Source: a virus
DNA length: 25,397 nt
Virus record (IMG/VR): IMGVR_UViG_3300025543_000189
Coordinates: 1-25,397 of that record
Reading direction: 5' to 3' (one strand)
Positions 1,786 through 18,134 of the stretch are shown in pieces. The stretch's first letter is position 1. Each line of letters begins with the position of its first letter. Below the pieces are notes generated by a model. It had not been told where the DNA came from. It saw nothing but the letters and a program-made list of their open reading frames with translations, and searched no databases. Both the position numbers and the translations under genes were made by a program.

Positions 1786-2339
1786 TATTTTATAATATCT
1801 AAGTAAGAAAACCCTGAACTAACAAGCAAAGCGCGCCGCCGCCGGGGCGCTCTTATGCTGGCGCTGGGCGCTGTAGCTTTGCCGGACTTCGTGTAAGTTA
1901 CGCCGTCAAATGTAAAATCTACATTTAGCATTTTTATAGTTGCTACGCTGCAATCAGAATCTATCTGCCGCAAAATAACCGCTCGCTCGCCTGCCTCCAC
2001 TTGGCTAAAAGTGCCTTGCGGGTCGGCTGTTTTTGTAACTCCGAACTGTGTTATATTTATTCCGTGCGAAGAAATAAAGCGCTTGTAAGCCGTTAAAACT
2101 AAAAATCTGGCCACTTGCTTGGCTATAAATCCGTTTAATTCTGGGCGAGATCCGTCAGGGCTCCCCGCGTAATTAACGGCGGCGTTATAAAGATCCGCTC
2201 CGAGTTTTGGCTCTAGGTCGTACTCTTGGGCCGCGTATATAAAAGGGTTTAGTTGGGCCTCTTCTATGTTTGCGCTAAACTTAACAAGGTTTGCCGCTGC
2301 AAAATCCGCTTTAGAAATTAATAGAGTGGTTGCCATCAT
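1785..2339 (-). CDS. Head-tail connector (adaptor-like) protein
   Basis: A 184-residue protein taken from the ATGATG that overlaps the portal stop codon. An upstream in-frame start would add 15 very basic residues that are only the portal C-terminus read in another frame. Helices dominate: an N-terminal segment with LLISKADFAAANLVKFSANI, then LNPFIYAAQEYDLEPKLGADLYNAAV, and a long helix with FIAKQVARFLVLTAYKRFI. The pattern 'AQxxDLxPxLGxxLY' plus a later GVTKT strand is like the connector family of Bacteroidota phages (DUF6712-like, from memory) that fills the place of gp6-type adaptors under the portal. Its position directly after the portal supports this. The last ~30 residues are basic and then hydrophobic (RAPRRRRALLVSSGFSYLDIIK), an odd tail of unknown use. 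Confidence 0.65.
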   Translation of the reverse strand: MMATTLLISKADFAAANLVKFSANIEEAQLNPFIYAAQEYDLEPKLGADLYNAAVNYAGSPDGSRPELNGFIAKQVARFLVLTAYKRFISSHGINITQFGVTKTADPQGTFSQVEAGERAVILRQIDSDCSVATIKMLNVDFTFDGVTYTKSGKATAPSASIRAPRRRRALLVSSGFSYLDIIK

Positions 2340-3892
2340 TGACCGGGGTTTAAATCTTCTTCTTCCTCTTTTGTGACTAGCCATTTAGCCGCCTCCGCGG
2401 CGCTGGCTGCAAAGCCTCCACCAATCAAAAGCGCCTCGGCCTGTTCGTAAGTTATCTCGTCTTTATTGAACTTTCTAACGGTCCGTAAAAGTTGCTGCAT
2501 TTGCCGGCCTGTTAAGTTGGTTAGCGTGCTGTTAGCCTCCGCGCCCGGCGCTCGTACGCCCTCGGGCGTTGTGGGCTGTATGGTTTGCGCCTGGCTGCTT
2601 TGGAGGTCTATTTCGAATAGTTCTTTTTGCTCTTCTGTTGTCAGTCCCGCTATTACGGCGTCCGGTATAAAATCGAAAGGCTTAAGGGTGCTTAGTGTAA
2701 AGTCAGCGTTTGCCGGTAAGCCTTCAAGCCTTAAAAGGTGCTTAATCTGGTCGAACCCTTCCTTTATTAGTTCCTGTCTTTTAAAGACTGAAAGTGCAAA
2801 AAGGCTAAGCGTATTTTTTAGTTCCTGCACGTTACCCAGCTGGCCTTCCTTCGCTATGCTTACCAAAACATCTGGCACGCCCATAACCCTACAAACGCGC
2901 TTTGCTATTCGCTCGCTGGCCCGGTCCGTTTGGTCTAAAATTTCCGCTATGTTTATAGTCGTTACCGTTGGCTTAAATTCCTCGGTGTTCCCTTTAAGGT
3001 GTAAAATCGGGCTGGCGTCTTCGCCTGTAAAATCCTGTAACGCTTCATCAAAATAATCCTGGGGCGTGTTCCCGTCTTCGTCTTCGTTCTGGTCGTCAAT
3101 CGGACCGGTTGAAATTATTACGGGGGTCCTGAAACCCTGGGCTATGTTGCGGAGGTCTAAGCGGCTTATTTTGCCGTCGCTTACTAGGTCCTCGATCGAG
3201 GCGTAATACCTAGGAATGGGGTAAATATCATAAAAGCGCCCGAGCCCTTTTCGGTACATGTAAAGGATTTCGCCCAGCTGCTCGCCGTGCTTGTCCACCT
3301 GCTTTTTTATTTCTTGCAGGCGCTCCGCCGGCGTTCGCTCCGTGTCAAATTCAGGATAAAAAACCGTTTCGCTTTTGTCTTCGCCCAGCTCGCCGTTTAG
3401 CGGGTTGAACTCAAAACCGCCGCGGACCCTTCTAAGGTTGCTAACGTTTACGTTATAAATTTTTCTTATTGAGCCGTCCACGTTAAACACTAAGCGGAGC
3501 GCGTACCCTTCTAAATAGGCTACGTTAGTAACTAGCTCGGAAACCGCAGATAAAAGACTTTGTTTGCTGTTAGCCTTAACCGCGTTTAGGCCTTCCATTA
3601 TAAAGCCGTCCGCTTGTATAAATTGCTCCAGGCGTTCAATGCACGCCGTCGCGGTGCCGCTATTATCCACCGTTGCAATAATGGTATTAGGTAGGTTATC
3701 AAGCTCGCCGAAATAGTAACGCTCGTTTCCTTTGTTTCTGAGAATAACCGCTACGGCGTTTTTTGCCGCGCTAGCTATCTTCTTTTTGAAGTCACCAACC
3801 GCCGCCAAAGCCCCGCGGGATAGTGTGGAGGCGCTCGCCTGTAAATTAATAACCTTTTGCGCCTGTCGTACCTGCTTAGGATTTTTAGGCAT
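2336..3892 (-). CDS. Phage portal protein
   Basis: A 518-residue protein with the general shape of phage portals. A basic N-terminus leads to a region with TACIERLEQFIQADGF and a strand segment YALRLVFNVDGSIRKIYNVNVSNLRRVRGGFEF, the usual 'how the residue at this position shows in the wing' part. Later come EILDQTDRASERIAKRVCRVMGVPDVLV and LGNVQELKNTLSLFALSVFKRQELI, the long stem helix and GxP turn typical of portals. The acidic C-terminus ends EEEEDLNPGQ. The portal forms the dodecamer at the head vertex through which DNA enters. It starts 2 nt after the small basic gene and its stop overlaps the connector start. What is odd is the place: the portal lies ~12 kb from the terminase and downstream of the capsid gene. 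Confidence 0.85.
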   Translation of the reverse strand: MPKNPKQVRQAQKVINLQASASTLSRGALAAVGDFKKKIASAAKNAVAVILRNKGNERYYFGELDNLPNTIIATVDNSGTATACIERLEQFIQADGFIMEGLNAVKANSKQSLLSAVSELVTNVAYLEGYALRLVFNVDGSIRKIYNVNVSNLRRVRGGFEFNPLNGELGEDKSETVFYPEFDTERTPAERLQEIKKQVDKHGEQLGEILYMYRKGLGRFYDIYPIPRYYASIEDLVSDGKISRLDLRNIAQGFRTPVIISTGPIDDQNEDEDGNTPQDYFDEALQDFTGEDASPILHLKGNTEEFKPTVTTINIAEILDQTDRASERIAKRVCRVMGVPDVLVSIAKEGQLGNVQELKNTLSLFALSVFKRQELIKEGFDQIKHLLRLEGLPANADFTLSTLKPFDFIPDAVIAGLTTEEQKELFEIDLQSSQAQTIQPTTPEGVRAPGAEANSTLTNLTGRQMQQLLRTVRKFNKDEITYEQAEALLIGGGFAASAAEAAKWLVTKEEEEDLNPGQ

Positions 3893-3894
3893 GC

Positions 3895-4134
3895 TTACTT
3901 TTTATTTCTGTTTCGTGTCCTTTTTGGGCGCGGGTCGCTCGCCCCGTTTTCGCCCGTTACCGGCTGCTTAGGTAGATCCGCGCTTTCTGGCACGTCTTCA
4001 AACATATAGGCAAAAGAAGGGTTAGCTTTTAGCTCCTTTTGAACGCTATCTCGCCCGATTGAATGCTGGTCAATTAATAGGCCGCTAGCCAGAACTATAG
4101 TCTGGTTTAAATATTGTTTTTTAAATCGCTTCAT
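3895..4134 (-). CDS. Small basic-tailed protein of unknown function
   Basis: A 79-residue protein starting MKRFKKQYLNQTIVLASG. An upstream in-frame TTG at 4188 would place the start inside a terminator hairpin, so the ATG at 4134 is preferred. The N-terminal ~50 residues look like a small folded domain (a strand-like TIVLASGLLID, then helix), with SIGRDSVQKELKANPSFAYMFEDVPE; the last ~15 residues are strongly basic (RPKRTRNRNKK). It is the first gene after the terminator that follows the tail-tube gene and stands 2 nt before the portal, so it likely belongs to the portal transcript. The basic tail could bind DNA or the portal, but I do not recognise the family. Confidence 0.6.
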   Translation of the reverse strand: MKRFKKQYLNQTIVLASGLLIDQHSIGRDSVQKELKANPSFAYMFEDVPESADLPKQPVTGENGASDPRPKRTRNRNKK

Positions 4135-4174
4135 AGCTTTTAAAATTTTGAACAAAGTAGTAAATAAAAATGAA

Positions 4175-4204
4175 AAGCCCTTAACCAATTAAGGCTAAGG
4201 GCTT
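4175..4204 (-). terminator. Rho-independent terminator after the tail-tube gene
   Basis: A 9-bp perfect stem (AAGCCCTTA / TAAGGGCTT) with a 12-nt loop is followed on the minus strand by a T-rich run (TTTTCATTTTTATTT). The 6-bp arms CCTTAA / TTAAGG with a 4-nt loop (4179-4194) form a second, mutually exclusive hairpin within it. It separates the head transcript from the portal-fibre genes. Confidence 0.8.
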
Positions 4205-4227
4205 CTTTATTTTTCATTTGGTCGAAA

Positions 4228-4815
4228 TTAAGCAGGCCAGATAACAAGCGCGTCTAATATCGCTATGTCCTCCGCCAGGGTGCTTGCTCCCGGCACCGAG
4301 ATAAAATAACCCTGTAAATTTTCATGGTTACCCGTGAATCCTAGAGTGTAAACATTACTGTCTAAAATAGCTGCACCGCTTCCACCTTCGACGCTGGCCG
4401 CCTTCATGCCAAAGTTTGCAAAGTTGCCGCCCTTGTTCATGCCCCAAACTTCAAGCTCGCCGCTGTTAGTTTCTGCAACCATGAAAAGACCCTCTACATC
4501 TATAAGCTCGTCTAAGGCTTCAAGCTCCGCCGGCGTGCTGTAGTAGGCAACTAAATTAACCGCGTGGTTACGCAAATTAAAATTATCTCCAACTTCTAAA
4601 GTCATTGCGGTGTTGTGCTTTTCGCGCTTTCCGATAAACTTAACCAGCCCTTTGTCCGCCGCAAAAGTTAGCGCGGTTATAGCGTTATTGGTTCCAAATG
4701 TTACCGCTGTTAGGTCTGAAAGTACGCCTATATAAACGCGCTTATTAAGGCCTCCCGGCTTTCTTAGCGCGTCGCAGTTTGGGTCAATGCCCCTCGTTAA
4801 TTCATTACAAGCCAT
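4228..4815 (-). CDS. Major tail tube protein candidate
   Basis: A 195-residue protein whose N-terminus (MACNELTRGIDPNCDALRKPGG) has the 'Cys, LT-G, Cys, GG' start seen in a family of structural proteins of Bacteroidota phages. The body matches that family: a strand KRVYIGVLSD, a KFIGKREKHNTAMTLEVGDNF segment, an element with LEALDELIDVEGLFMVAETNSGELEVWGMNKG, and a late TLGFTGNHENLQGYFI strand followed by a short tail. The 'SGE/WGxxxGG' beta-turn and 'TGxHE' parts are compatible with a gpV/tail-tube fold. It is directly downstream of the major capsid gene and ends at a terminator, the place of an abundant structural protein. The alternative is a capsid decoration protein. The assignment rests on recalled family shape. 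Confidence 0.6.
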   Translation of the reverse strand: MACNELTRGIDPNCDALRKPGGLNKRVYIGVLSDLTAVTFGTNNAITALTFAADKGLVKFIGKREKHNTAMTLEVGDNFNLRNHAVNLVAYYSTPAELEALDELIDVEGLFMVAETNSGELEVWGMNKGGNFANFGMKAASVEGGSGAAILDSNVYTLGFTGNHENLQGYFISVPGASTLAEDIAILDALVIWPA

Positions 4816-4843
4816 AATTTTTTTTATATCTATAAAGTTAGAA

Positions 4844-4866
4844 AATAGGCGGAGTTTTTACGCCCC
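4844..4866 (-). other. Hairpin between capsid and tail-tube genes
   Basis: On the minus strand GGCGGGG and CTCCGCC pair across an 8-nt loop (one G-T pair), followed by a weak TATTTTC run. It lies in the 60-bp gap after the capsid stop. It could trim or weaken read-through, or protect the capsid message. It is a poor terminator by its T-run. Confidence 0.35.
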
Positions 4867-4875
4867 GCCCCTAAA

Positions 4876-6111
4876 TTACAAAGGCTTATACAAGAAAACC
4901 TCCTGGCCGTACTTATAGGTAATATCCGATTTCATACGGTTTTTAACTCTATAAACGTCGTCGCCTGTTACATCTCCTAAGAAGAGCACGCGCGCGTTAA
5001 CTTCATCAGAAAGCAAGTCCACGCCTAAAAAGACGTTCCCCGGGTTCCATACCGCCGCGGTATTATCCGCCCAGTGTGGCATAGCTACCACATCAAAATC
5101 TAAATACTTAAAGATTGAATCTTGTTCAAAGTAGCTTACCAGTGTGAAGTCTCCGCCGTTGCCTTGGATTAGACCGTTAGCAACGCGGTAAGCGTCCGCC
5201 ATTCTATCAGATAAAAATATCTTAGTTCGCCCGTTTCCGGTCTTGCTTACCTGCTTCTTTACTTTCTGCGGTACGCTCATGTAAATAGAAGTAATAACGC
5301 CCATAATATTAGTCTGGTTGACGTACCAGCCAAAACCTTCTGTTGCCGCCGCCGCGCCTGTTACGGCCTCTTCGATAGTCAAAACAAGTGCGTTTATAGC
5401 AATGACCGTAACGGTCTGGCCCGCAATGGTTGTGCCGCCTATTGTCTGGTTTCCGTTGGTTCCTGTCAAGGTTACGCGGTCCCCTACAATAATATTGTCC
5501 GCATTCGCAACCGTAACCGTCGCGGCGTTGGCCGCTCCAGACGCTACACCCGTAATCGCAACTCTAGCCGTCGGAGGTAGAGCCGTTTTTCTTACTGCCG
5601 CGTCCGCGATAGCCAAAGGCAAAAGACCCACGTAAGCCGCGGAAAAAGTAGCCGTTGCAACCTCGCCGGCGTTAACGCCCGCTTTACCTAAAATGTAAAG
5701 CTGCTCGTTTCCGATTGCCATTTTAGGCGCGTACACCTCGGACAAAAGAAAGTTGTAAAGCTCAGGCGTTAGCTTATAATCCTCAAAACTACCCGGCTTT
5801 TGCTGCTCCGACTCCCAGGACAAACGCAAGTCTACGGCATCAATCTCATCCATCACCTCGTAAGCTTTCATTTCCAAAGCTTTCTGGCTTAGATCAATGT
5901 CGCCCGTCTGAGCTACGAACTTAGCGCTCGGCTCCTGAAATTCAATAACGCGGTTTACGCCTCTTAAAATTTCCTTATTCTTAATTGTCTCGATTCCTGT
6001 AACCAGGCCCCGGTTTACAATGCCAGCAGGTGCTAACATTGCAGGCGTCATAAGCTCCGCATAGAGCTTGCCGCCGTAAGTGTTCCCGTTAGGGTAAATA
6101 ATTTCTGCCAT
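4876..6111 (-). CDS. Major capsid protein (HK97-type) with inserted beta domain
   Basis: A 411-residue protein placed right after the protease-scaffold gene, the usual site of the major capsid gene. Residues 1-180 hold an N-arm (GNTYGGKLYAELMTPAMLAPAGIV), a strand pair and an E-loop-like acidic segment (RVIEFQEPSAKFVAQTGDIDLSQKALEMKAYEV), then a spine helix region (DYKLTPELYNFLLSEVYAPKM). Residues ~265-411 resume the core with SIYMSVPQKVKKQV, KIFLSDRMADAYRVANGLI, a P-domain-like GDFTLVSYF...YLDFDVVAMPHWAD, and a final strand series with FLGVDLLSDEVNARVLFLGD. Residues ~182-262 look like an inserted beta domain rich in Val, Thr and Gly (VGDRVTLTGTNG, GQTVTVIAINALVLTIEEAV). The protein builds the icosahedral shell. 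No maturation cleavage site can be named from sequence alone. Confidence 0.85.
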   Translation of the reverse strand: MAEIIYPNGNTYGGKLYAELMTPAMLAPAGIVNRGLVTGIETIKNKEILRGVNRVIEFQEPSAKFVAQTGDIDLSQKALEMKAYEVMDEIDAVDLRLSWESEQQKPGSFEDYKLTPELYNFLLSEVYAPKMAIGNEQLYILGKAGVNAGEVATATFSAAYVGLLPLAIADAAVRKTALPPTARVAITGVASGAANAATVTVANADNIIVGDRVTLTGTNGNQTIGGTTIAGQTVTVIAINALVLTIEEAVTGAAAATEGFGWYVNQTNIMGVITSIYMSVPQKVKKQVSKTGNGRTKIFLSDRMADAYRVANGLIQGNGGDFTLVSYFEQDSIFKYLDFDVVAMPHWADNTAAVWNPGNVFLGVDLLSDEVNARVLFLGDVTGDDVYRVKNRMKSDITYKYGQEVFLYKPL

Positions 6112-6141
6112 TTTTTCTACGTGGTTTTGAAAGTTGAATAT

Positions 6142-6741
6142 TTATTTTTTAGACTCCGCTTTGTTCATGGCTTGCAGCCGGATTTTTTCGCCCGGGCTTA
6201 GCGCCTTAAACTCTTCCGGAGTTAATTTTTTCAGGGGTTTTGCCTTCCCGTCTGGGTCCCCCAGCACCAGGTTCTTAAGATCCGCAAAAGCAGAAATAAC
6301 GCCGTTAAGCTTTTCGGCTCCTTCGCTATTTGATTTTTTAAGGTTTGCGATTTGAGCGGAAAGCCCTGCAACCGTGGAGGCGTGGCGCGCTTCCATCTCC
6401 TTTTTATCCTCTTCAAAAGCTACCTTAAGCGCTTCCATCTCTTCTGGGGCGGGCGCCGAGGCTGGTTCGATAACTTCGCTAATTACGCCGCTTTCGGCGA
6501 CCGTAATTGTCTTACCGTCTTCTAGCTCGTAGCTTGCGGCCGGTGCCGTTTCTTCCGTTGGTAGCCCTTCGACCGCCAAAAATACCGGCTTACCTATTAG
6601 CTCGCCGCCCTCTTCGCCTCCAATAAATAAGGCCGTCCCGTCTTTCGCGGTAACTGCCATATTTTTAAGCGAAGATTTAAAGAAGTTTTTAACCCCCGCG
6701 AGCGCTTTTTCAAAGGCGCTAACTTTGTCTTTGTGATCCAT
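6142..6741 (-). CDS. Possible nested scaffold protein from an internal start
   Basis: An in-frame ATG (Met337 of the fusion) opens a 199-residue product with only the scaffold-like part, beginning MDHKDKVSAFEKALAG. It lies just past the end of the Nudix domain and is preceded by an unusually AT-rich stretch (AAATTTTAAATAAACTTAAT), like the leaders before true starts in this window. In lambda, the scaffold Nu3 arises from such an in-frame internal start within the protease gene C. There is no direct evidence of use here. Confidence 0.4.
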   Translation of the reverse strand: MDHKDKVSAFEKALAGVKNFFKSSLKNMAVTAKDGTALFIGGEEGGELIGKPVFLAVEGLPTEETAPAASYELEDGKTITVAESGVISEVIEPASAPAPEEMEALKVAFEEDKKEMEARHASTVAGLSAQIANLKKSNSEGAEKLNGVISAFADLKNLVLGDPDGKAKPLKKLTPEEFKALSPGEKIRLQAMNKAESKK

Positions 6742-7749
6742 ATTAAGTTTATTTAAAATTTGATTTACTACATTTATAAAGCGTTCGTTTTGGCCCTTAA
6801 TAACGGCTAAAGTTTTAAGCTCTTCAAGTGTTTTGTATTCTGCTAACTCATGCTCGGGCGTTACACCCGGGGCGGCTATTGCTCCGCTGGCGTAAAAATA
6901 AACGGTTAGGCTTTCGTCTTCGTTAACTACTTCGATTAGGCGCTCCACGCTTTCAAGCTTTTCGCTTACCTCCTCCTCGAACTCTCTAAGAGCGCCCGCC
7001 TCGGTTGTTTCGCCTTGCATAACCTTACCGCCGGGAAAGCCCCACGCGCCCGGCTCGAAATCATCCTGGGCGGACCGCTTAAGCATCAGCACCTCGCCGG
7101 CTTCGTTAATGTAGATAACGTCCGCATAGGTTGTTATTGGTCCGTCCTGTAGATTTAGCGCGCCTATTTGGTTTTGACTGTAAGTCAATACCCTGTTTTT
7201 AAAATAGGCCGTTACCGGCTCCGCTTCAATTATCTCGGTCGCAAAGCCTAATGCCAGGGCCATGTTAGCGCCTACGTTTGTTTCGACTGCCATAAGGGCC
7301 AGAAGTTTGCCGGCGTTCCCGTTGCCCGCGACGCTTGCATATATGTTTAATATTTGCATGTCTGTCTGGGCGAAAGATTCCGTAAGGGCCTTTAGAGTGT
7401 GAAAGTTTAACTTTTCACCCGTTAAGGCGCCCGCGTCTATCCAGGCGTTGTGTATAATCATTTCGGAGCCCCTGAAAACTTTTCTAGTTTTACCGGCTAA
7501 GAAAATAACGCTGGCTATGCTGTTCGCTATAATTGCCTCGGTATGCACTTCATGCTTTTTAAGCTCTTCGAAGATTTTAAAACCCTCCTCGACTGAGCCG
7601 CCGGGGCTTCTAAGGACCGCCCGAAAAGGACCGCCGCCGTAAGAATCTAAAAAATTTTGGAGGTCCGCAAAGCTAAAAACCTTCTCGCCCTTTGTTACGG
7701 TCGTGTCGTTTTTGTTGCCTATTACGCCCTCGATATTTAAAGTCTTCAT
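6142..7749 (-). CDS. ClpP-like head maturation protease fused to Nudix domain and scaffold
   Basis: A 535-residue three-part protein. Residues 1-185 are a phage ClpP-like (S14) protease: LRSPGGSVEEG at 47, the nucleophile segment ANSIASVIFLAG with Ser77, MIIHNAW with His100, and ETNVGANMALALGFATEI at 156, where Glu stands at the usual acid position. Residues ~205-330 are a Nudix fold: a strand EVLMLKRS, WGFPGGKVMQGE, and the box Gx5Ex7REUxEE (Gly241, Glu247, Arg255, Glu256, Glu259, Glu260); the closing Gly-hydrophobic pair is Ser-Glu. Residues ~337-535 are acidic, Ala/Glu/Lys-rich, with a long coiled-coil stretch (~435-475) and a C-terminal KLTPEEFKALSPGEKIRLQAMNK element, typical of scaffolds. 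The gene directly precedes the capsid gene, so the protease and scaffold roles are well supported. What the Nudix part hydrolyses, if anything, is unknown. Confidence 0.88.
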   Translation of the reverse strand: MKTLNIEGVIGNKNDTTVTKGEKVFSFADLQNFLDSYGGGPFRAVLRSPGGSVEEGFKIFEELKKHEVHTEAIIANSIASVIFLAGKTRKVFRGSEMIIHNAWIDAGALTGEKLNFHTLKALTESFAQTDMQILNIYASVAGNGNAGKLLALMAVETNVGANMALALGFATEIIEAEPVTAYFKNRVLTYSQNQIGALNLQDGPITTYADVIYINEAGEVLMLKRSAQDDFEPGAWGFPGGKVMQGETTEAGALREFEEEVSEKLESVERLIEVVNEDESLTVYFYASGAIAAPGVTPEHELAEYKTLEELKTLAVIKGQNERFINVVNQILNKLNMDHKDKVSAFEKALAGVKNFFKSSLKNMAVTAKDGTALFIGGEEGGELIGKPVFLAVEGLPTEETAPAASYELEDGKTITVAESGVISEVIEPASAPAPEEMEALKVAFEEDKKEMEARHASTVAGLSAQIANLKKSNSEGAEKLNGVISAFADLKNLVLGDPDGKAKPLKKLTPEEFKALSPGEKIRLQAMNKAESKK

Positions 7750-7777
7750 AATTTAGCGGTTAATATACTGTAAACTT

Positions 7778-7794
7778 TTAAGATAAAATCTTAA
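7778..7794. promoter_or_regulatory. Dyad in the divergent gap between protease and plus-strand gene
   Basis: A perfect 7-bp inverted repeat, TTAAGAT and ATCTTAA around AAA, lies in the middle of the 77-bp AT-rich gap between the two divergent starts (7749 minus, 7827 plus). It could be an operator for either gene or a small RNA hairpin. I see no clear promoter boxes here. Confidence 0.4.
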
Positions 7795-7826
7795 TTTGCT
7801 TGAATAATTTAAACCTAATTCAAAAA

Positions 7827-7967
7827 ATGAAATACTTTAACCGAATAACCGCCAGCTTTCTTGTCCTGCTTTCCTGCATTTTTGCCTTGCTTATTTGGCC
7901 TTTTGCCGCGCCTGTCTTCATCCTAACCGGAAAGGATCTAACCGCCCGCTTTAAAGTTTTTAAATAA
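7827..7967 (+). CDS. Small membrane protein on the opposite strand
   Basis: A 46-residue protein, MKYFNRITASFLVLLSCIFA onward, with a single strongly hydrophobic segment (residues ~9-33, through LLIWPFAAPVFIL) and a short basic C-terminal tail (TGKDLTARFKVFK). The 'WP-hhhh-ILTGK' ending resembles tiny membrane proteins that recur in Bacteroidota phages. It is the only plus-strand gene I support in the window. It faces the tape-measure gene tail to tail (3 nt apart) and is divergent from the protease gene. Its start follows an AT-rich leader with a run of six A, similar to other starts here. A role in lysis (holin-like) or superinfection exclusion is possible, but nothing in the sequence decides this. 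Confidence 0.6.
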   Translation: MKYFNRITASFLVLLSCIFALLIWPFAAPVFILTGKDLTARFKVFK

Positions 7968-7970
7968 ATA

Positions 7971-10355
7971 TTAGCTTAAATCGCTAAGCGCTTTCACCTG
8001 GTTAACCTCCGCGTTAACGCGGTTAATGTCGGAAACTTTCACTACTAAATTTAAGGCGCTTACCGCCTCCTCGAATCCCTGCTGGGTTTCCTGTAAGGCG
8101 CGGCGGTCAATGCCCGGCACGCTGGCCCGGCTTATGGCCCCGCCGTCTGCTAGGTAGTTAGACGAGCCTCGGGTCCAACTCCGCCCGCCGTAAAGCTGGT
8201 TATAGTTACTAAGGGCTTTAATAGATTGAAAAGCGTTTTTCTTCATAACGAAAAGACCCTCGCCGCCCTCCACGTTTGCCACGGTCCGCCCCCCTATCGC
8301 GACGTCTGAGCCTCCGCCGGCGTGCGACGGTCCGCCAATCTCAATGCCTCCGCCGTCTTCGAATTTGGGCGGCGCTTTGCTGTTAATCTTTGCCACGTTG
8401 GCCAGCCCCTGCACTACTGTAGCGCCTGCCACTATTTGACCGAACGGCGGCGGAATAGTGGCCAGCGCTAAGTTCGCCCCGCGGTAAGTGTCTATAATAG
8501 CCTGGAAGCTGGCGGCTATCTTACCGGCTGCACTTTGGGCCCCAAAGACGCTAACAGCCGCGTTTAGTACGGCGTCCGTTGCTGCCATTTGCGCGGCGGC
8601 GGTTTCCGTTGCCAGCTTCTTTTTGTCCTCGGATAATAGCGCTTCGCCAGCTATTTCTTTTTGCCGGGCCGCCACTCCGCGGCTTACCGTTTCATCCTGT
8701 AGCGTCCTAAGTTGTGCCTGTAGATCTGCCTCAATAGCGAGGCGCGTCTCGGCGTCTATTAGTGCGTTTTGTTGCGTAGCTACGAGCTGGCCCTGTAGAG
8801 CCGCCGCGCGTGTCTCAATCGCTAAGGCCTCCACTTGGTCAAGTTGGGCCTGGTAGGTTTCTAAGTCTATTAGCCCGTCCGCAAATTGCTGCTTAACGCC
8901 GTTTAGCGAGTCCCTTATTGCTAAATCAGTCTCGGCGGCGCGGGTCTTAATAGCCTCCGAATAGTTCGCGTTTAATTCCTTCTGGAGCTCCGCGGCTTGC
9001 TTAAGTGTCTCGGCGCCCGCGGCGGCTTGATCTGTGGCGACCTGGGCCGCCGCGGCTTTGTTTTTGTCCGCGGCTTCTTTGTTTAGCGCGTTCCTTTTAT
9101 TTTGTAGTTCTATTTGTTTAGTTGCGCTTTCTTGCTGAATATTTGCCAGCTGTATTTCTGCATCTATGACCCGGTTTAGATCCGCGTCCGTGCTACTGCT
9201 TAGCTCGTTTTGCTGCTTTAAAATACTTATTCTTTGCTTTTGTAAATCTATGCCTTTTTGTTCCAGGCCTTGCTCTAACTTTTCCGCTTTCGCAATAGCC
9301 GCCGCGCGCTCCGCGGTGCTTTTTGTTACGTCTTCGCCTACCTTCTTAAGGTCCTCTAACTGCTGGCGGCTTTGGGCCCTTTCAAGGCTTAGCGCTTTCT
9401 CGGCTCTTACTATGTTTTGCAGTTCGCCTTCAAGGCGTGCCGCTTCTTTCCCAGCCTTAACGGCGGCGGCTCCTACCTCTAAAATATTAATACCATCAAT
9501 ATTACCCGCTGCTTTTGCTATGCCATCAACCCCACGCTTTACGCGGTCAAAGTCTAACGTAACTATACCAGCTATAATGTCCCCTAAGCCCTCAAAGGCC
9601 GGCACCACGTTGTCAAAAATTTGCTTTCCTAAACCTATTAACGCATCAACCAGAACGCTTACGAACGTGCTTACGGCGGAGGTAGCCCGCGCCAGCTTGT
9701 CCATGCCTTCCTGGCTTTGCGAAAGGTACGCAACTAAAGCCCCTAATATTACAATGAAGGCACCAACGCCAGACGAGATTAGTATTTTACTAAATGATGA
9801 AGTTGCCGCACCCGCCGCGCCGGTCGTAGCTGTAACAATTTTGTTAACCGCTGCCAGGGCTTGCTGGGCTTTGCTAAATAGCCCGGTGCTATCCACCGCC
9901 TCAATAATAGAGCCGGTATAGTTACCCACGTTTCGCCCGGTAACTCCGATTTGGCCCTCTAAGCGCTTTAGCTCCTCGGTCTGAGCTAATAAAGATTTTT
10001 GAAGCGCTACACCTGTCCTTTCGTTATTGCGCTCCTCGGCGCTTAAGTTAACGTATTCTTGCTTAAGGCGCGAAACGTTCGCGCGCATGTCTGCAATCGA
10101 ACCCGTATTGCTTTTTTGGATCTTGTCGGAGGCTTGCAAAATACGCTGGTTTTCGCGTACCGTATTATTTAACCCTTTTATGGCCGTTTCGTTTCTCACG
10201 TATTCAACCGAGTTCTTTTTGCCTTGGTCCGCTAAGGCTTTATTTGCTTCCTTTAGGCCGTCAATTTCGCCCCGTAAATCTACTATAGCCTTTTCACTGC
10301 TGGCTATTTGATTTTCGTCAATTCCGACCCTTAATAAAATGCTTTCTTCTGCCAT
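7971..10355 (-). CDS. Tape measure protein
   Basis: A 794-residue protein with the make-up of tail tape measures. Residues 1-140 are coiled coil (KAIVDLRGEIDGLKEANKAL..., RLKQEYVNLSAEERN). Residues ~185-265 hold two hydrophobic segments (ILISSGVGAFIVILGALVAYL and FVSVLVDALIGLG onward), as in proteins ejected into the host envelope. A long Ala/Glu/Gln/Lys coiled coil runs from ~290 to ~620. The C-terminus is Gly-rich with GGPSHAGGGSDVAIGG and VEGGEGLFVMKKNAF, a pattern seen in other tape measures, and ends in another helix. Using the usual ~1.5 angstrom per residue, the tail would be about 120 nm. No lysozyme or peptidase domain is visible. It follows the tail genes and a 46-aa coupled gene. 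Confidence 0.9.
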   Translation of the reverse strand: MAEESILLRVGIDENQIASSEKAIVDLRGEIDGLKEANKALADQGKKNSVEYVRNETAIKGLNNTVRENQRILQASDKIQKSNTGSIADMRANVSRLKQEYVNLSAEERNNERTGVALQKSLLAQTEELKRLEGQIGVTGRNVGNYTGSIIEAVDSTGLFSKAQQALAAVNKIVTATTGAAGAATSSFSKILISSGVGAFIVILGALVAYLSQSQEGMDKLARATSAVSTFVSVLVDALIGLGKQIFDNVVPAFEGLGDIIAGIVTLDFDRVKRGVDGIAKAAGNIDGINILEVGAAAVKAGKEAARLEGELQNIVRAEKALSLERAQSRQQLEDLKKVGEDVTKSTAERAAAIAKAEKLEQGLEQKGIDLQKQRISILKQQNELSSSTDADLNRVIDAEIQLANIQQESATKQIELQNKRNALNKEAADKNKAAAAQVATDQAAAGAETLKQAAELQKELNANYSEAIKTRAAETDLAIRDSLNGVKQQFADGLIDLETYQAQLDQVEALAIETRAAALQGQLVATQQNALIDAETRLAIEADLQAQLRTLQDETVSRGVAARQKEIAGEALLSEDKKKLATETAAAQMAATDAVLNAAVSVFGAQSAAGKIAASFQAIIDTYRGANLALATIPPPFGQIVAGATVVQGLANVAKINSKAPPKFEDGGGIEIGGPSHAGGGSDVAIGGRTVANVEGGEGLFVMKKNAFQSIKALSNYNQLYGGRSWTRGSSNYLADGGAISRASVPGIDRRALQETQQGFEEAVSALNLVVKVSDINRVNAEVNQVKALSDLS

Positions 10356-10358
10356 GTC

Positions 10359-10499
10359 TTACGCGGTTTTTATACTTGCTTCAAGGGCTTTAATCTGAGC
10401 GCTTAGCCTTTGCATTTGTTCTTTATATACTTTGCAGCCGCAACCGTTAAATAGTCGCTCGGCCCTGTCGTAATCGCTCTTAAGTGCCTCTAATGTCAT
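10359..10499 (-). CDS. Small coupled protein before the tape measure
   Basis: A 46-residue protein beginning MTLEALKSDYDRAERLFNGC. The ATG overlaps the stop of the 683-aa tail gene (ATGA) and the TAA ends 3 nt before the tape-measure ATG, so the gene fits exactly between its neighbours. It is nearly all helix: two amphipathic helices (residues 2-17 and 25-45) joined by GCGCK, suggesting a helical hairpin, perhaps with metal or disulfide at the Cys pair. Tail-assembly chaperones usually lie at this place; this one is far shorter and shows no slippery site, so I do not call it one. Confidence 0.65.
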   Translation of the reverse strand: MTLEALKSDYDRAERLFNGCGCKVYKEQMQRLSAQIKALEASIKTA

Positions 10500-12547
10500 A
10501 CCCCTAATTTTATTAATTTAACCCAGCAACTTTCCCGCCTGTTAACTTTGAATTGCTTAACCTCTTCCACTATAAAGAAGTCCCCAAAGTAATCAATGTA
10601 AACCGGTACGCTAAAATCTAAGCGTTGCACGTCCACTAAATCTAACAAAAAAAGAGCTTCGACCGTTTTAGTGTTATCTAATACCGCGCGTAAAAGTCGG
10701 TAATTATCAGAAAGCGCCCGGCTAAAGCTGAGCGCGGAGCCGTTAACCTCGAAGTTAATCTCGTTGCCGTCCACCGCTATTTGTAGGGATGCCTCGGCCT
10801 CCGCTAATATTGCAACCCGCGCGCTAAAATCTGCTATTTTAGTGTCTTCGTTTAGTATGTAGTCGAAGCCGTCAAAGGTGTATTTGTCGCCGGTAAAAAC
10901 GCGCCCCATCGTCCGCTCGCCCTGTAGCGTTGGAAGAACCGGCACGGGCGAAAACTTGCTGGTAAATATTGTTTTTTCGGCTTCTAAATTTACGTTATTA
11001 ACTTCGACCGCCCCGCGCCCGTAATTAGGTTCTAGTAAGTTGTCTTTATCGTCACCTTTAAAACTATAAAAGTTCCGCTTAGCGAAGCCCGCAATAGAGT
11101 AGCCCACTATTGGCTGGTCCGTAATGTCTAGCTTCCCGCTCCAATCTAACGCGCGCGCTTTGTTTTTTGATATGGTGTCAAACTTCGAAGTGTTAATCTT
11201 TTTGCTCGTTTCATCTACTTGAATTATAAGCCCTTCCAGGTTTGCCACTGTTAAAAGCAGGTCCCCGACTGTAGGCTCGGAGGGCAAAACGTTAGCCGCG
11301 CGGACCGTTATAGGCGCTATAAATTCCGGGGCGGTTATCCGTTGGCCCGTCCTCGGTGTTTGATTAATTATAAACTCCAGATTTTCAAAGCGTAGGTACT
11401 TCAACCCATAGCCGGGGCGGTTGCTCCTAACCTGCCAGCCGAACCTTAGCTGGGTTAGGTCCGGGTTAGCGGTAAGCATAGCCGCAAAGGCGGCGGAGTC
11501 GTCACGCGTGGATGGTAAAACGGCATTAATATCTCGCTCTAAGGTGCCGCTGGCCGGCGCTTTGTATATGTTAAAAGGCCCTTTAAATCTGTCTTCGAAC
11601 TGTACCGGCGGCGTCGAAACTGTTAAGAGCTCCGCGCCGGAGGCGTTGTAAATTATCAAATCAACCCAGACGAGCGCGTTAGTGTAGCGCCGTGGTAAAT
11701 TGGTTATAACTTTGCCGGTTATGCTTATCTCGAATTTCGCCTGAATGCCGTCCGCCACGTTTGGGCTATAGACAAATTGACCTATAGTCAAATCATTTTT
11801 ATATAGTAGTGACTTATCGGAAACGCGCTCGGGAAAATTTATTTTTTCCGCCGTGTCTCCTGTCAGTTTATTATAATCAATAGTAAATTTATACTGGGCT
11901 AAGCTGTCTAGTAGGTCCGCGACGGCTCCGCGGCAAAGCACCGCAAGCCGGCGCCAGGTTAGCGTTTGCAAAATGTCACCGTGTAGCGTGTAGCCCGCGG
12001 CGCTTATCGCTTTTAATAATATAGTATTAGCCCAAAAGCTAGGATGAAAAAACCTGAAAGAATACGTTGGCGCGTCCGGGTCTGCATACTCCAGAAAACC
12101 GTAATCTATGTTAGGATAAACAAAGCCCTCTAAAGTTTCGCGGCGCGGCACCACCTCAGCGGCCAGATATTCGTGGTCATGCTCCGCCAAATCCACCTCG
12201 ACCAACTTAACCGAGCTTAGTGCTTTGAAAAAATCAGTATTGCCGGCGCTCACAAAAAGCCGGTATTTGTCCTGGGTGTCTAATATTGTGGCCGTGCCAT
12301 CAATGATTAACATACCATCAATAAAATGCTTGAAGGTGTTGAGCCGGTAAGGCAAAGCCGTTAAGCTTGTAACCAGCTCGCAGTTATCAAATAGAGCCTT
12401 ATTCGCGTTTGTCTTGTTGAGTTCGAAGACGTTCGAATAACTACCCTTTCGGCTCCCTAAAGTCTCAAAGCTAAGCGCCTGTAAAGTGATAACTATCTCG
12501 GCGTCCTGGGTGTCTACTAAAAGACCGTTTATATATGTTTCCGTCAT
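10496..12547 (-). CDS. Large tail/baseplate protein of Bacteroidota-phage type
   Basis: A 683-residue protein, mostly beta by pattern. The N-terminus carries the series ...VITLQALSFETLGSRKGSYSNVFELNKTNANKALF, the 'RK-x-S-x-F-LP/N-T-x-N' start typical of large tail proteins next to the tape measure in phages of Bacteroidota, followed by an IDGMLIIDGTATILDTQDKYRLFV beta layer. The middle has Trp/Tyr-rich segments (SYRFFHPSFWANTILL) and the C-terminus ends in FSVPVYIDYFGDFFIVEEVKQFKVNRRESCWVKLIKL, a compact beta domain. It overlaps the 488-aa gene by one base (TAATG) and the next gene by ATGA. A place in the tail tip or hub is likely from context. I cannot name a catalytic motif. Confidence 0.6.
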   Translation of the reverse strand: MTETYINGLLVDTQDAEIVITLQALSFETLGSRKGSYSNVFELNKTNANKALFDNCELVTSLTALPYRLNTFKHFIDGMLIIDGTATILDTQDKYRLFVSAGNTDFFKALSSVKLVEVDLAEHDHEYLAAEVVPRRETLEGFVYPNIDYGFLEYADPDAPTYSFRFFHPSFWANTILLKAISAAGYTLHGDILQTLTWRRLAVLCRGAVADLLDSLAQYKFTIDYNKLTGDTAEKINFPERVSDKSLLYKNDLTIGQFVYSPNVADGIQAKFEISITGKVITNLPRRYTNALVWVDLIIYNASGAELLTVSTPPVQFEDRFKGPFNIYKAPASGTLERDINAVLPSTRDDSAAFAAMLTANPDLTQLRFGWQVRSNRPGYGLKYLRFENLEFIINQTPRTGQRITAPEFIAPITVRAANVLPSEPTVGDLLLTVANLEGLIIQVDETSKKINTSKFDTISKNKARALDWSGKLDITDQPIVGYSIAGFAKRNFYSFKGDDKDNLLEPNYGRGAVEVNNVNLEAEKTIFTSKFSPVPVLPTLQGERTMGRVFTGDKYTFDGFDYILNEDTKIADFSARVAILAEAEASLQIAVDGNEINFEVNGSALSFSRALSDNYRLLRAVLDNTKTVEALFLLDLVDVQRLDFSVPVYIDYFGDFFIVEEVKQFKVNRRESCWVKLIKLGV

Positions 12548-14013
12548 TACTGAGTCTGGACTGGTACGCGTTGCGCTATTTTGAAACGGAAATTAAAACG
12601 CGTTTCGCTTTGGTTAAACTTGTTCCCATACGTGCTAAAATTCTGTTTATCCAATACTATTGGAATGTCCCAGGCCTGTGTGGAGGTGTTATATAAATAA
12701 ACCTGAATAGCGGAGCGCATGGAGGCCAGCGCGTCTATTTGAACCTTAGTCAATACTCCGCCGCTTACGTTGTAAGAATCATAAACCTCACCCAGCTCCA
12801 CGCGCTTAAGCAGGCCCGACGCCCCAACGGTTAGGCTTTCCTTTCCAAATTCCCGCCCTTTAATGTAGCGCGTATCTAATGCCATAGACGAAAAGCCGCC
12901 GCGCTGGTTTATCCAGGCGAAGTTTAGCGCGTCCGGGCATACCTCCACTATCTCAGAAATAGGGGTAACGCAAGTATTAAGAGTAAAAAGCGGCCCGCCG
13001 CCCAGCGTAAAGTCGAAGCTATAGCAGCCCGTCACGCTGTTAATTTCGCCGGCTACTAAGTAGTCGAGCGGGTTATAGTCCGCCGCTAAGTAGTCACCCG
13101 CGCCCGCGGTGCATGGGTTAATAACTAGGTCTATTCCGTTTCCGTTCGCGGTCGCTTGAATCCATGAAGGCAAAGCGGGTGAAACGCTAAAACCTGCTGT
13201 AGGTGCCACGCCGAGCCAGTTAATTACTTTGGGCTCGCAGCTTAATAGCTGTACATCTAACACCGCCCCGGACGCCGTGGAGGGCGCCGCGTTGGGGTCC
13301 GCTATAAAGTTGTTTATTATTCCTTTTGCGAGCGCTAAGCTGTAGAGTATAGGCGCCGCGCCAAAATATAAAATAGGCCTTTCTCCTACCGCCTCCGCGC
13401 CTTCCTGTTGGGCCGTTGTTAAATCTGCTAGGCCGTAGTAAGCCGTTAACGCGTTCACGTCATCTGGTATAGCTGTTTCACTTTTTAGCCTTACTAGGTA
13501 TCTAATACTTATAGGCACGTTAGGACCTACGAGCGGAGCCTCCACGGCAAAGCGGGAACGGATAAAGCCGCTAATGTCGAAGCGGTAGCGCCCGTTAATA
13601 ACGCTCGGGCTTACTCTTATCTCGTCTGTAACCTGCCAAGGCTTAAGAGCCGCCTCGGGTCCGCTGCTATAGCCCGCGATTAGTTGGAAGTCGGCAAGGC
13701 CTTCTGGCGTGAATTGGTTGGACCCCGTTGCGGCGCTGCTCCCTATGTACGGAGTGTTAAGACTTAATCTAAAATCTAGGCCTAAATCTAAGGTTTCAAT
13801 AATAGTATAAACGCCTAAATACGCGCCGTTAGTTATTCGAACCTGGTCGCCCTCTTCTAAGAATCCGATATATAAAGCGCTTACAACTATAGCCGCCCCG
13901 CCTTCAACCTCCACAAATTGAGCGCTGGCCGCCGTAAAAGCGAACTCATAAACCATAGGGCTAAAAACGTCCTGACCGTTTACCGGTGTAATTATTGCAT
14001 TTATTAAGCTCAT
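12547..14013 (-). CDS. Tail structural protein with possible carbohydrate-binding segment
   Basis: A 488-residue protein, largely beta. The first ~95 residues form a small beta module (FLEEGDQVRITNGAYLGVYT), then a WQVTDEIRVSPSVINGRYRFDISGFIRSRF segment that recurs in tail proteins of Bacteroidota phages. Around 258-302 there is a short domain (LSCEPKVINWLG to IDLVINPCTAG) with the 'W, P-W-I, G-x-G-h-x-h-x-V-N' rhythm of BACON-type carbohydrate-binding domains; this is tentative. The C-terminal part has FAWINQRGGFSSMALDTRYIK and a final FRFKIAQRVPVQTQ. It starts at an ATGA overlap with the gp10-like gene and ends at a one-base overlap with the 683-aa gene. With that gene it probably makes the tail tip or hub. 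Confidence 0.55.
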   Translation of the reverse strand: MSLINAIITPVNGQDVFSPMVYEFAFTAASAQFVEVEGGAAIVVSALYIGFLEEGDQVRITNGAYLGVYTIIETLDLGLDFRLSLNTPYIGSSAATGSNQFTPEGLADFQLIAGYSSGPEAALKPWQVTDEIRVSPSVINGRYRFDISGFIRSRFAVEAPLVGPNVPISIRYLVRLKSETAIPDDVNALTAYYGLADLTTAQQEGAEAVGERPILYFGAAPILYSLALAKGIINNFIADPNAAPSTASGAVLDVQLLSCEPKVINWLGVAPTAGFSVSPALPSWIQATANGNGIDLVINPCTAGAGDYLAADYNPLDYLVAGEINSVTGCYSFDFTLGGGPLFTLNTCVTPISEIVEVCPDALNFAWINQRGGFSSMALDTRYIKGREFGKESLTVGASGLLKRVELGEVYDSYNVSGGVLTKVQIDALASMRSAIQVYLYNTSTQAWDIPIVLDKQNFSTYGNKFNQSETRFNFRFKIAQRVPVQTQ

Positions 14014-14462
14014 GAGGTGCCGCGTTTTACAAATTCATTAATAACCGCGCGCCTTAGTTTTCCGTCCAGTACATCGGTTAAATTTTCTTTTATGCTTTGG
14101 GCGTTTATGCTTTTGGATATAACGCCCGATTTGCCGCCCTGCCTGTGTAGTAATGAGCCCTCTTCGCCTATCTTACGGGCTATAAGGAACGCCAGCGAGC
14201 GGGTGCTGATATCGGAAATAATAGGCTTTTGTTTTACCCACTCTTCTATAACATCGAGCGGCGGACGTTTGCCCGGCTTTCGCCCTGTCTCCAATACTGT
14301 AAAGTATTTCTCGCTTGAGAAGATAGTAAGTGTTAACCCTTCAATCCTATAACCCAGCGAGGCGCTCATGGTGCCGCTAACGTTGGGTATTCGCGAGCGA
14401 ATCTCTTCTATTGTCTTTTCCGCAAAGGCCGCCAGAACGGCCCGCGTTAGCCCGCTTAGCAC
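14010..14462 (-). CDS. HK97-gp10-like tail completion protein
   Basis: A 150-residue protein. The start is a GTG overlapping the upstream stop. The central part VLETGRKPGKRPPLDVIEEWV is the mark of the HK97 gp10-like family, in which a Thr-Gly-Arg turn and 'PP-x-x-x-I-x-x-W' precede a helix; here it is followed by the helix STRSLAFLIARKIGEEG and a GGKSGVI loop. Proteins of this family take part in joining the tail to the head or closing the tail tube. The C-terminal ~35 residues are a basic helix. It is coupled on both sides to tail genes (7-nt and 4-nt overlaps), which fits the role. Confidence 0.75.
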   Translation of the reverse strand: MLSGLTRAVLAAFAEKTIEEIRSRIPNVSGTMSASLGYRIEGLTLTIFSSEKYFTVLETGRKPGKRPPLDVIEEWVKQKPIISDISTRSLAFLIARKIGEEGSLLHRQGGKSGVISKSINAQSIKENLTDVLDGKLRRAVINEFVKRGTS

Positions 14463-14869: not shown

Positions 14870-14895
14870 ACTGGCGACAATATAAAGCAAAAAAG

Positions 14896-14915
14896 CCCCG
14901 GCCGCAAAGCCGGGG
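14896..14915 (-). terminator. Rho-independent terminator after the zinc-ribbon gene
   Basis: A 7-bp GC-rich perfect stem (CCCCGGC / GCCGGGG) with a 6-nt loop is followed on the minus strand by CTTTTTTG. It lies between the zinc-ribbon gene (stop at 14933) and the tail-terminator-like gene, dividing the packaging block from the tail block. Confidence 0.85.
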
Positions 14916-14932
14916 TACTATTTAATTGCTTC

Positions 14933-15235: not shown

Positions 15236-15237
15236 CT

Positions 15238-15657: not shown

Positions 15658-15680
15658 ATTCTTTCGGTTTATTTGATACC

Positions 15681-15722: not shown

Positions 15723-15725
15723 TAT

Positions 15726-16418
15726 TTATTTTTGTGTTCCGCTTTTCCGGCGCTCTATATTCCGTAAATTTTCCTGATAAGCCGCTTTAGTTTGCTGGTA
15801 AAGTAGATCTATGTAAACTTCCTCCGCGGCCCATTGGTAGACGTCGTAAGGCTTGCAGCCGTAGCGCGACGCGACGCCCTCAACTATCGCATAGGTTCCG
15901 AACGTATGAAGCGCACCAATCCCGGCCTCTTCCTGATCTTCGTTAGGCGGCTCGCCTTTCAGGTCCTTAAACCTTTCAAATAGTTTGGTAAGCTCCGCGA
16001 AGACCAAAGCGCCCAGGGCCATTAGCTCCACGGCGTCGAAGTCCTGCAGGCGGTCCGCGTAATAGACTTTAACTAAAGCCGGGAAAAGCAAATAGGGTTT
16101 TTTATGATCTATTAGGCGGAGCCGCCCGACCTCCGCGCGCTCGTACGTGCCGCCAGCTATGTCCACATCCGGGAGCTCCGCAGCGGGGCTAAGGTTTGCG
16201 GCCAGGTCGTCTAAATCATCTATAAAACTAACGAGCTCGTAAAGGGCTAAAATTTGCCCGCTGTTAAGCGCTCGGACCTCCGCGGCGGTTAGTGTGCTTA
16301 GGGCTTCGATAATAGCGCGCGGCCCTTCTTTTTGGATGCCCAGCAGGTCCGCGGCGGTTACGTCACGCCAGGAAGTCTTGAAAGTGACTACCTTTTGATT
16401 TACGTTTAGTTTTACCAT
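15726..16418 (-). CDS. Unknown protein after TerL (tail-chaperone-like pattern)
   Basis: A 230-residue protein that starts inside the terminase gene, overlapping its last 56 nt in another frame. The N-terminus (LNVNQKVVTFKTSWRDVTAADLLGIQ) followed by helices and an IDDLDDLAANL stretch resembles proteins of Bacteroidota phages that start with a 'W-x-x-hT-x-x-x-L' motif. The C-terminal YGCKPYDVYQWAAEEVYIDLLYQQTKAAY is like the end of some tail-assembly chaperones, where a 'G-x-x-hxxV' turn precedes a helix. If so, it is far from the tape measure (which starts 5.4 kb on) and there is no frameshift product. The family is not certain. It is coded with the terminase, so it is late. Confidence 0.5.
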   Translation of the reverse strand: MVKLNVNQKVVTFKTSWRDVTAADLLGIQKEGPRAIIEALSTLTAAEVRALNSGQILALYELVSFIDDLDDLAANLSPAAELPDVDIAGGTYERAEVGRLRLIDHKKPYLLFPALVKVYYADRLQDFDAVELMALGALVFAELTKLFERFKDLKGEPPNEDQEEAGIGALHTFGTYAIVEGVASRYGCKPYDVYQWAAEEVYIDLLYQQTKAAYQENLRNIERRKSGTQK

Positions 16419-17679
16419 GTGAGCGGCTTTTATAGTTCGGTGTGTAATTGGTTAGCAGCATAACGGCTAAATAGCGGGCCGCGTCTATCGCGTGGTTAAA
16501 AGCGTCAACCGGTTTATTAGTCGCTTTGCCTGTCTTCTTATCCTTCGCCCAGCTGTAGGTGCGGAGCTCTTTTATAAGGTTTAGGCTTCGCGACGTTACC
16601 AGCATCTCGTAGCCCTGTAAAAGATCAATACCAAAGTTAACGCTATCTTTTCCCTTGTCCGCCGGTAAGACGTTAAACCCGTAACTAACCAGCTCTTTAA
16701 TGCTCTTGGGCTCCGCCTGGTCCGCGTAGATTGGCACGCCGGGTTTAACGCCTACCTGCTTATAAAGCGCGGCCAGGTCTGAGTTTAGCAGGCCTTTCTG
16801 GTAAATAAGCTCGTCTAGTATTATTTTGCCGTCCCACGCGTACACCGCGACGGTTGCCGCCGGGTCGTTAGTAAATCCAAAGTCTTGACCGTAACCCAAA
16901 AGCTTAGCGCTTTCCGGAACGGTGCTTATTTGCTTCCAATTGTCAAAAATAACACCTTCCAGGCTGCCAAGTAATCCAAGGCCGTAAACCTTCCACCAAT
17001 TAGCCCAATAAGCATTTTTAATATTTGGCTCCGCGAAGAGTGTCGGCCCCTCCAGGCTTTCATCTATAAACGCCTTCGTGCGGTTCTTTTCGATTTCCTT
17101 AACTATTGAGGGCGCGAGCGCTTCGTTGTCTTTGTAGGTTAATGTAAGCGTTACGGCGTCCGGGTCGTTAGCCAGCTCCGTGTGCACCCAGAATTCATTA
17201 GACGGATTATAATCTAACCAAATCTCGTCATCGGTTCGAATGGCGAGCTGGTAGTATGTTTCAAAGCTTAGGTTGTTTGCTTCGTTTATATAAAGGATAT
17301 TACGCCGGGGGCCTCTTACTTTTGTCTCGCTTTCCGCACTAAAAAATTCAATGTAGGATCCGTTCGGAAATTTATAAACGCGGTCCGTTTTGTTATAATC
17401 TGCCTCGCGCCAGCGGCCCGTGCTTACCATAAACTTTTTAAAATCTCTTATCGCCCCTTTTTTCAGGTGTGGCACGCTTTCCGCAACTACTGAAATGGTT
17501 AGGCCTTTTTGTTTTATAGCCTTGTCCACTAAAACTGGTATTATTCCTACAGTTTTTCCTGCAGACGTTCCGCCTGGTATTATCTTAGTTCTTTTGCCGG
17601 TATGCCTGAGGCCGCGGAGCTTGCGGACCGCCGTAGTGACGCGCCAACCTTCGACGGCTTTAACGGTCTTCGCTATCAT
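16363..17679 (-). CDS. terL: Terminase large subunit
   Basis: A 438-residue packaging motor. With numbering from the TTG one codon upstream of the chosen ATG (17679): Walker A GGTSAGKT at 37-44, Walker B LYINEA with Glu134, a coupling/C-motif region near LDYNPSNEF (157-164), and the nuclease part with Asp267 (YGQDFGFTNDP), Asp321 (YADQAEP) and Asp400 (DAFNHAIDAARY). This is the ATPase plus RNase H-like nuclease pair of the Terminase_3/6 type, somewhat compact in length. It cuts concatemeric DNA and drives it into the prohead. The gene overlaps the end of the small subunit by ~20 nt, so the two are translated together. The C-terminal ~20 residues are basic (YKSRSHGKTKRKSKG), as in other terminases. 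Confidence 0.95.
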   Translation of the reverse strand: MIAKTVKAVEGWRVTTAVRKLRGLRHTGKRTKIIPGGTSAGKTVGIIPVLVDKAIKQKGLTISVVAESVPHLKKGAIRDFKKFMVSTGRWREADYNKTDRVYKFPNGSYIEFFSAESETKVRGPRRNILYINEANNLSFETYYQLAIRTDDEIWLDYNPSNEFWVHTELANDPDAVTLTLTYKDNEALAPSIVKEIEKNRTKAFIDESLEGPTLFAEPNIKNAYWANWWKVYGLGLLGSLEGVIFDNWKQISTVPESAKLLGYGQDFGFTNDPAATVAVYAWDGKIILDELIYQKGLLNSDLAALYKQVGVKPGVPIYADQAEPKSIKELVSYGFNVLPADKGKDSVNFGIDLLQGYEMLVTSRSLNLIKELRTYSWAKDKKTGKATNKPVDAFNHAIDAARYLAVMLLTNYTPNYKSRSHGKTKRKSKGSHFQDFLA

Positions 17680-18130
17680 CAAAAATAGGCTGGTACTCTA
17701 TTAGCTTGTTTTCCACCTTGTCAACTAGACCGAGCTCGCGTGCTATGATTGACGGATTAAGCAGTCCCGCCGCCGCGCCTTCTATCTTTTGGCTGTACAT
17801 TATCTCGCGCGCCTGCGCTATGATTTCCGAGAAGCCGTCTCCCTTTCCGCCCTTCTCGTACTCGTAGAGCGTCGAAGAGCCGCACCCCGTAAAGCCGCAA
17901 AAGCCCTGAATAGTCATACATCGCATTTTTGGAAGGCTGTAAACCTTAACGCGCTCCGCTCCGCCGGATGTTTTGATCTTCTGTAAAACGGCCTCTTTTA
18001 GCGGGTTCTCTTCTATGTATTGGAAGTAGTCGTTAAAGGCTTCGCGTAACTCGTCCGGGCTGCTAAATCTACGCGGCGCCCCGGTGTTAATCCTAAACAT
18101 CCAGTGTTTATTTCCTATCGGTCCGGGCAT
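17660..18130 (-). CDS. terS: Terminase small subunit
   Basis: A 156-residue protein, start taken at ATG 18130 (MPGPIGNKHWMF); a TTG two codons earlier is also possible. It begins with a GNKHW/ SSPDELREAFNDYFQYIEENPL segment, continues with a helix-turn-helix-like part MRCMTIQGFCGFTGCGSSTLYEYEKG, and ends with a long helix FSEIIAQAREIMYSQKIEGAAAGLLNPSIIARELGLVDKVE. The 'LY-x-YE', 'I-x-x-x-K-x-x-G-A-x-x-G-h-x-N-P-x-I-A-x-R-x-LGL-x-DK' pattern is that of DNA-packaging small subunits of the P22 gp3/related type. It recognises the packaging start on the genome; that site often lies within or near this gene. It has its own promoter, next to the repeat-rich gap. Confidence 0.85.
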   Translation of the reverse strand: MPGPIGNKHWMFRINTGAPRRFSSPDELREAFNDYFQYIEENPLKEAVLQKIKTSGGAERVKVYSLPKMRCMTIQGFCGFTGCGSSTLYEYEKGGKGDGFSEIIAQAREIMYSQKIEGAAAGLLNPSIIARELGLVDKVENKLIEYQPIFDDSEDR

Positions 18131-18134
18131 ATTC

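Follow-up and report, generated by a model that had tools for sequence, protein, structure and literature searches.

Why should the head maturation protease of a phage carry a nucleotide hydrolase fold in its own chain, and what could such a domain do there? This question is raised by a gene on the minus strand of a 25.4-kb virus record, the whole of which was analyzed and is referred to here as the window. The gene (6142..7749, minus) joins a ClpP-like protease, a Nudix domain and a scaffold-like region, and had been predicted as a single reading frame. That frame was borne out exactly: it is intact, begins with ATG and encodes 535 aa followed by a stop. By comparing the gene with its relatives, we found that the Nudix domain is an optional in-frame cassette at the seam between protease and scaffold, present or absent among near-identical phages. 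The comparison also informs our model of what the domain may do.

Genomic context of the fusion gene

The minus strand of the window carries a primase/helicase gene and other replication genes, followed by the genes for the small and large terminase subunits, tail genes and the tail tape measure protein (7971..10355, minus; phrog_3336, E 9e-9). After the tape measure come the fusion gene, a putative major capsid gene, two small genes and the portal gene (2336..3892, minus; phrog_11226, E 1.1e-27). The late gene order (2336-18136) is unusual, with terminase, tail and tape measure first and protease, capsid and portal last, and the block from tape measure through protease and capsid to portal is kept in relatives. 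A Bacteroidota host is likely, because the large terminase subunit (16363..17682, minus; phrog_2) is 58% identical to the terminases of Flavobacterium psychrophilum phages.

The original prediction placed the fusion gene directly before the capsid gene, and the position holds, as the next gene (4876..6111, minus; 411 aa) starts 30 bases downstream. The capsid identity of its product is putative and has synteny as its basis, namely position and conservation in relatives; the PHROGs match is to an unannotated family (phrog_11320), and a profile of the protein searched against the PDB gave no match. At the edge of the record, a reading frame cut by the window end (2-304, minus) probably encodes a tail-fibre or coiled-coil protein. 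Positions 1-182 hold 4.3 copies of a 42-base unit in tandem (95% match), which encode a AATAADRVQTGLDA-like repeat of 14 residues.

Protease domain

Residues 1-193 (7171..7749, minus) form a ClpP-like head maturation protease. Pfam CLP_protease (PF00574) matches residues 46-176 with an E value of 9e-9 (35.9 bits against a cut-off of 20.2), and the head maturation protease family phrog_94 covers residues 1-181 (E 1.7e-25). A profile of the protease compared with the PDB found ClpP chains, with E values down to 2.4e-9, and placed Ser77 on the ClpP nucleophile. The predicted catalytic residues, Ser77 (7519..7521, minus), His100 (7450..7452, minus) and Glu156 (7282..7284, minus), the last assigned to the ClpP acidic position after the motif was aligned by hand, are unchanged across 11 sequences, which were drawn from two distant families that are ~32% identical, in agreement with the triad first proposed. 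Ser80 was also considered as the nucleophile and rejected, as it is replaced by Phe in two second-family members (L038 and L040), whereas Ser77 is invariant and lies on the ClpP serine. Matches to pentatricopeptide-repeat proteins, obtained with phmmer when the protease alone was compared with the PDB, were an artefact of weak repeats being summed; the profile gave ClpP instead. The score against the ClpP-related head maturation protease model NF045542 of NCBIfam, 71.7 bits, is below its cut-off of 120, so by sequence the window protease is best described as a divergent relative of that family and not as a member.

Nudix domain

The Nudix domain occupies residues 202-335, approximately (6745..7146, minus). 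The domain search that had been proposed found NUDIX as well as CLP_protease above their cut-offs; PF00293 matches residues 209-313 with an E value of 4.4e-14 (53.1 bits against 21.1), and the MutT/NUDIX family phrog_1198 matches the middle of the fusion protein (E 2e-13). The Nudix box (residues 241-263; 6961..7029, minus) contains all six core residues, Gly241, Glu247, Arg255, Glu256, Glu259 and Glu260, and these are invariant in 27/27 Nudix relatives. Position 262 is Ser, as originally noted, and this had cast doubt on activity. The doubt is weak, as Gly occupies this position in L002, L004 and L017, the closest relatives, 9 of the 27 related sequences have a residue other than Gly (18 have Gly), and the six core residues do not vary. 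Ser262 is private to the window phage and lies at a non-catalytic position.

The AlphaFold2 (AF2) model of the domain alone, built with 27 sequences, has a pLDDT of 88.6, and its best structural match is the MutT protein 3grn_B (Z 16.9, 132 residues aligned, rmsd 2.6). A fold other than Nudix, which would have contradicted the prediction, is not what the model gives. The substrate cannot be read from this comparison, because the scores for MutT, RppH, Ap6A hydrolase and NrtR, an ADP-ribose sensor, lie within 1 Z of one another. The top family models are of the generic MutT/NTP type and each scores under its own cut-off, including the 8-oxo-dGTPase MutT model TIGR00586 (45.1 bits against an equivalog cut-off of 97.9). 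Specificity for 8-oxo-dGTP is not claimed, as MutT Asn119 aligns near an Asn-Glu pair in the window protein that is not conserved in L004. The suggestion that the substrate is a defence signal such as NAD or ADP-ribose finds no support in the sequence, for which generic MutT/NTP models are best, T4 NudE, a hydrolase of ADP-ribose, FAD and Ap3A, is only 20% identical in alignment and the structures tie. In a scan of a genome collection for similar proteins the only match was distant, a Nudix protein from a metagenome-assembled genome (28% identity over 76 residues).

The Nudix segment is maintained and is not decaying, because its dN/dS against L002 (NG86) is 0.081, near the value for the protease (0.054) and under that for the scaffold (0.173). 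YN00 gives 0.19 for the same segment and pair, and selection is purifying by both methods.

Presence and absence among related phages

Among the IMG/VR relatives that form the first family, the window, L002, L004 and L017 have the Nudix domain. Six others (L006, L007, L008, L009, L010 and L020) lack it and encode a protein of 392-406 aa with the same protease and scaffold. The closest comparison is between L004, which has the domain, and L007 and L008, which do not. DNA identity is 90-97% on both flanks, and a Nudix stretch of about 420 bases in L004 corresponds to about 20 bases in L007/L008. In a DNA tree of five genes, L004 is nested within the Nudix-less clade with bootstrap values of 99 and 96; single-gene trees have weaker support, yet L004 is always paired with L008. 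A single gain in L004 would be simpler than several losses, because the Nudix-less members of its clade share one nearly identical linker. A recombination breakpoint at the L004 seam is not claimed, since the raised divergence on its right side (91%, against 99% on the left) does not exceed that found elsewhere.

A second family, whose capsid and portal proteins are 28% and 33% identical to those of the window, has the same polymorphism. The domain is present in L035, L037, L038 and L040 and missing in L117-L121. Between members with and without it, DNA identity is about 87% towards the protease and 78% towards scaffold and capsid, and at the seam the protein reads SVQE...EDLILKTTEM in both. 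Between the two families the Nudix domains are 32-34% identical and the whole proteins 34%. This suggests that the fusion itself is old, because the Nudix domains have diverged about as much as the proteins that carry them. A second Nudix gene was sought on the records of the Nudix-less relatives, which are incomplete, and none was found there. In each of two distant families, phages of the same type thus differ naturally in having or lacking the domain, and such pairs offer a clean with/without comparison.

Scaffold-like region and candidate internal start

The cassette seam directly precedes a conserved internal Met, Met337 in the window protein (6739..6741, minus), at which the scaffold-like region begins (residues 337-535; 6145..6741, minus). 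The region is conserved in all relatives. It had been predicted to be a scaffold-like coiled coil, and its position and the helices predicted at residues 339-360 and 435-496 agree with this at low to medium confidence. Between the two helical parts lies a conserved, strand-rich piece (residues 365-427; about 6469-6657, minus) that the earlier description did not mention. The helices come from an AF2 model of the full fusion built with 10 sequences, which has a pLDDT of 52.8 (about 25-45 in the Nudix part) and was used for secondary structure only.

Met337 is invariant in ten first-family sequences, and the second family has a Met at the equivalent place. The 20 bases before the seam Met are 70-95% A+T in both families and rank in the top 0.4-9% of positions per gene; in the window, this stretch (6742..6761, minus) is 95% A+T and falls in the top 0.4% of codon positions in the gene. 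Conservation of an Ile-Leu protein sequence may account for part of this A/T richness. Bacteroidota initiate translation without Shine-Dalgarno sites, and an A/T-rich leader fits this habit. Met337 and its leader would probably allow the scaffold to be produced on its own, with neither protease nor Nudix attached, as in the nested C/Nu3 genes of lambda, where the scaffold is made from an internal start inside the protease gene; here the start is a prediction. If it is used, the Nudix domain would travel with the low-copy protease, apart from the bulk of the scaffold.

Nudix domains in other head proteins

Other phage proteins with a comparable arrangement were sought, as the original prediction had proposed, among relatives that were sampled by similarity to the query and from which frequencies are not derivable. 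The same type of Nudix domain is joined to a Peptidase_S78_2/XkdF head protease in L032 and to a DUF2213 head protease in L046, L047 and L049. In the Arthrobacter phage Mufasa8, gp3 carries portal, Nudix and MuF on one chain. A separate Nudix gene lies immediately upstream of a phrog_1028 head protease gene in the Chryseobacterium phage MA9V-3 and in L041 and L043. The association between Nudix domains and head proteins is therefore recurrent. This recurrence and the published analysis of such fusions, in the text of PMC9503650 that bears on them, give good support to the earlier idea of a Nudix enzyme built into the prohead. Mufasa8 and MA9V-3 are isolated phages with related arrangements, in which virion mass spectrometry and deletion of the domain are feasible.

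Nudix domains were also observed in other settings. Domains of the same type lie inside a 924-aa protein of Flavobacterium phage MaF61 (ORF123; L027:5029-7803) and a 1357-aa protein (L033:1343-5413), neither of which has another recognised domain. An N-terminal Nudix domain is fused to proteins of 1177-1222 aa that match the unannotated phrog_22901 (L042:3896-7561 and L044:3953-7483). In L048, L053 and L045, a small Nudix gene that stands on its own overlaps the end of a gene matching the unannotated phrog_36119.

Proposed function

We consider the best explanation, with a probability of about one half, to be that the domain is an active hydrolase that is carried into the prohead by the protease-scaffold protein and delivered with the DNA, as an optional cassette. 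A complete and probably active MutT-like Nudix hydrolase sits at the seam between protease and scaffold. As it shares one polypeptide chain with protease and scaffold, it would be carried into every prohead at a copy number like that of the protease. Cleavage of the linkers during maturation could then free it inside the capsid, from which it could enter the next host together with the DNA and hydrolyze a small compound of nucleotide type, which could be an oxidised nucleotide or a nucleotide signal of the host. Two points count against this explanation: the domain may do its work in the cytoplasm, ahead of assembly, and all copies of the exact protease-Nudix-scaffold architecture are on metagenomic contigs, many of them fragmentary.

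The enzyme might instead be active late in the infected cell as a MutT-like housekeeping or nucleotide-pool enzyme, fused for co-expression and never delivered. The nearest family models and structures are indeed of MutT type, and the separate Nudix gene upstream of the head protease in MA9V-3, L041 and L043 suits late co-expression as well as it suits packaging. Co-expression alone, however, would not call for fusion to a portal and to head proteases of at least three Pfam types, and we regard this reading as rather unlikely. A domain that does no chemistry at all, serving as a spacer or as a ligand-binding regulator of protease or scaffold, for example a nucleotide sensor that times maturation, would agree with its location at the hinge between the two and with the existence of non-enzymatic Nudix sensors such as NrtR, one of the structures that tie in the comparison. 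It is harder to reconcile with six core box residues that are invariant in 27/27 sequences and with the same type of Nudix domain at differing places in unrelated head proteins. The purely structural or binding role that had been left open is also made less likely by near-identical phages that live without the domain, and we judge it distinctly improbable.

That the fusion is an error of sequencing or assembly joining two genes is refuted. Apart from the metagenomic origin of the sequences, no support for an error was found. Two other samples contain orthologues with 87% identity, the distant second family has the same order, and the Nudix segment is under purifying selection.

Delivery of an active hydrolase with the DNA can be extended to a broader and more speculative model, which we think unlikely to hold in full. 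Head proteases of several unrelated families would act as general docking points onto which an optional Nudix enzyme, exchanged horizontally, is loaded as cargo. The protease of the phage would release this enzyme during maturation, and after injection it would destroy a nucleotide signal of the host, with gain and loss at the seam tracking local host defences.

Comparison with known systems

Fusion of Nudix domains to head proteins is, as a kind, already known. Section 3.5.2 of Iyer et al. 2022 (PMC9503650) notes Nudix domains fused to MuF, portal and capsid-processing serine peptidase proteins, and proposes that such fusions are packaged and injected. The window Nudix is likewise covalently joined to a head protein. 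The fused domains are described in the text of PMC9503650 as T4 NudE-like, whereas the window domain shares only 20% identity with T4 NudE and obtains its best scores from MutT-type models. The passages on these fusions describe neither a domain inserted between protease and scaffold nor a presence/absence polymorphism, and figure 5a of the paper may show the same architecture.

The window protein also resembles the ClpP-like protease-scaffold fusions of PHROG 94 and of NCBIfam NF045542 and NF045540, with an N-terminal protease, a C-terminal scaffold-like region and the capsid gene next. It differs from them in having a 135-residue Nudix domain between the two parts and in scoring under the NCBIfam cut-offs. 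As in gp3 of the isolated phage Mufasa8 (compare PHROG 15528), a Nudix domain lies inside a structural protein of the head, but the carrier is the portal in Mufasa8 and the protease in the window phage. Relative to the open-access literature, the apparent additions are the presence/absence polymorphism, seen at a single seam in both distant families, a domain character that is MutT-like as opposed to NudE-like, the association with head proteases of the XkdF, DUF2213 and phrog_1028 types, and a candidate internal start for the scaffold.
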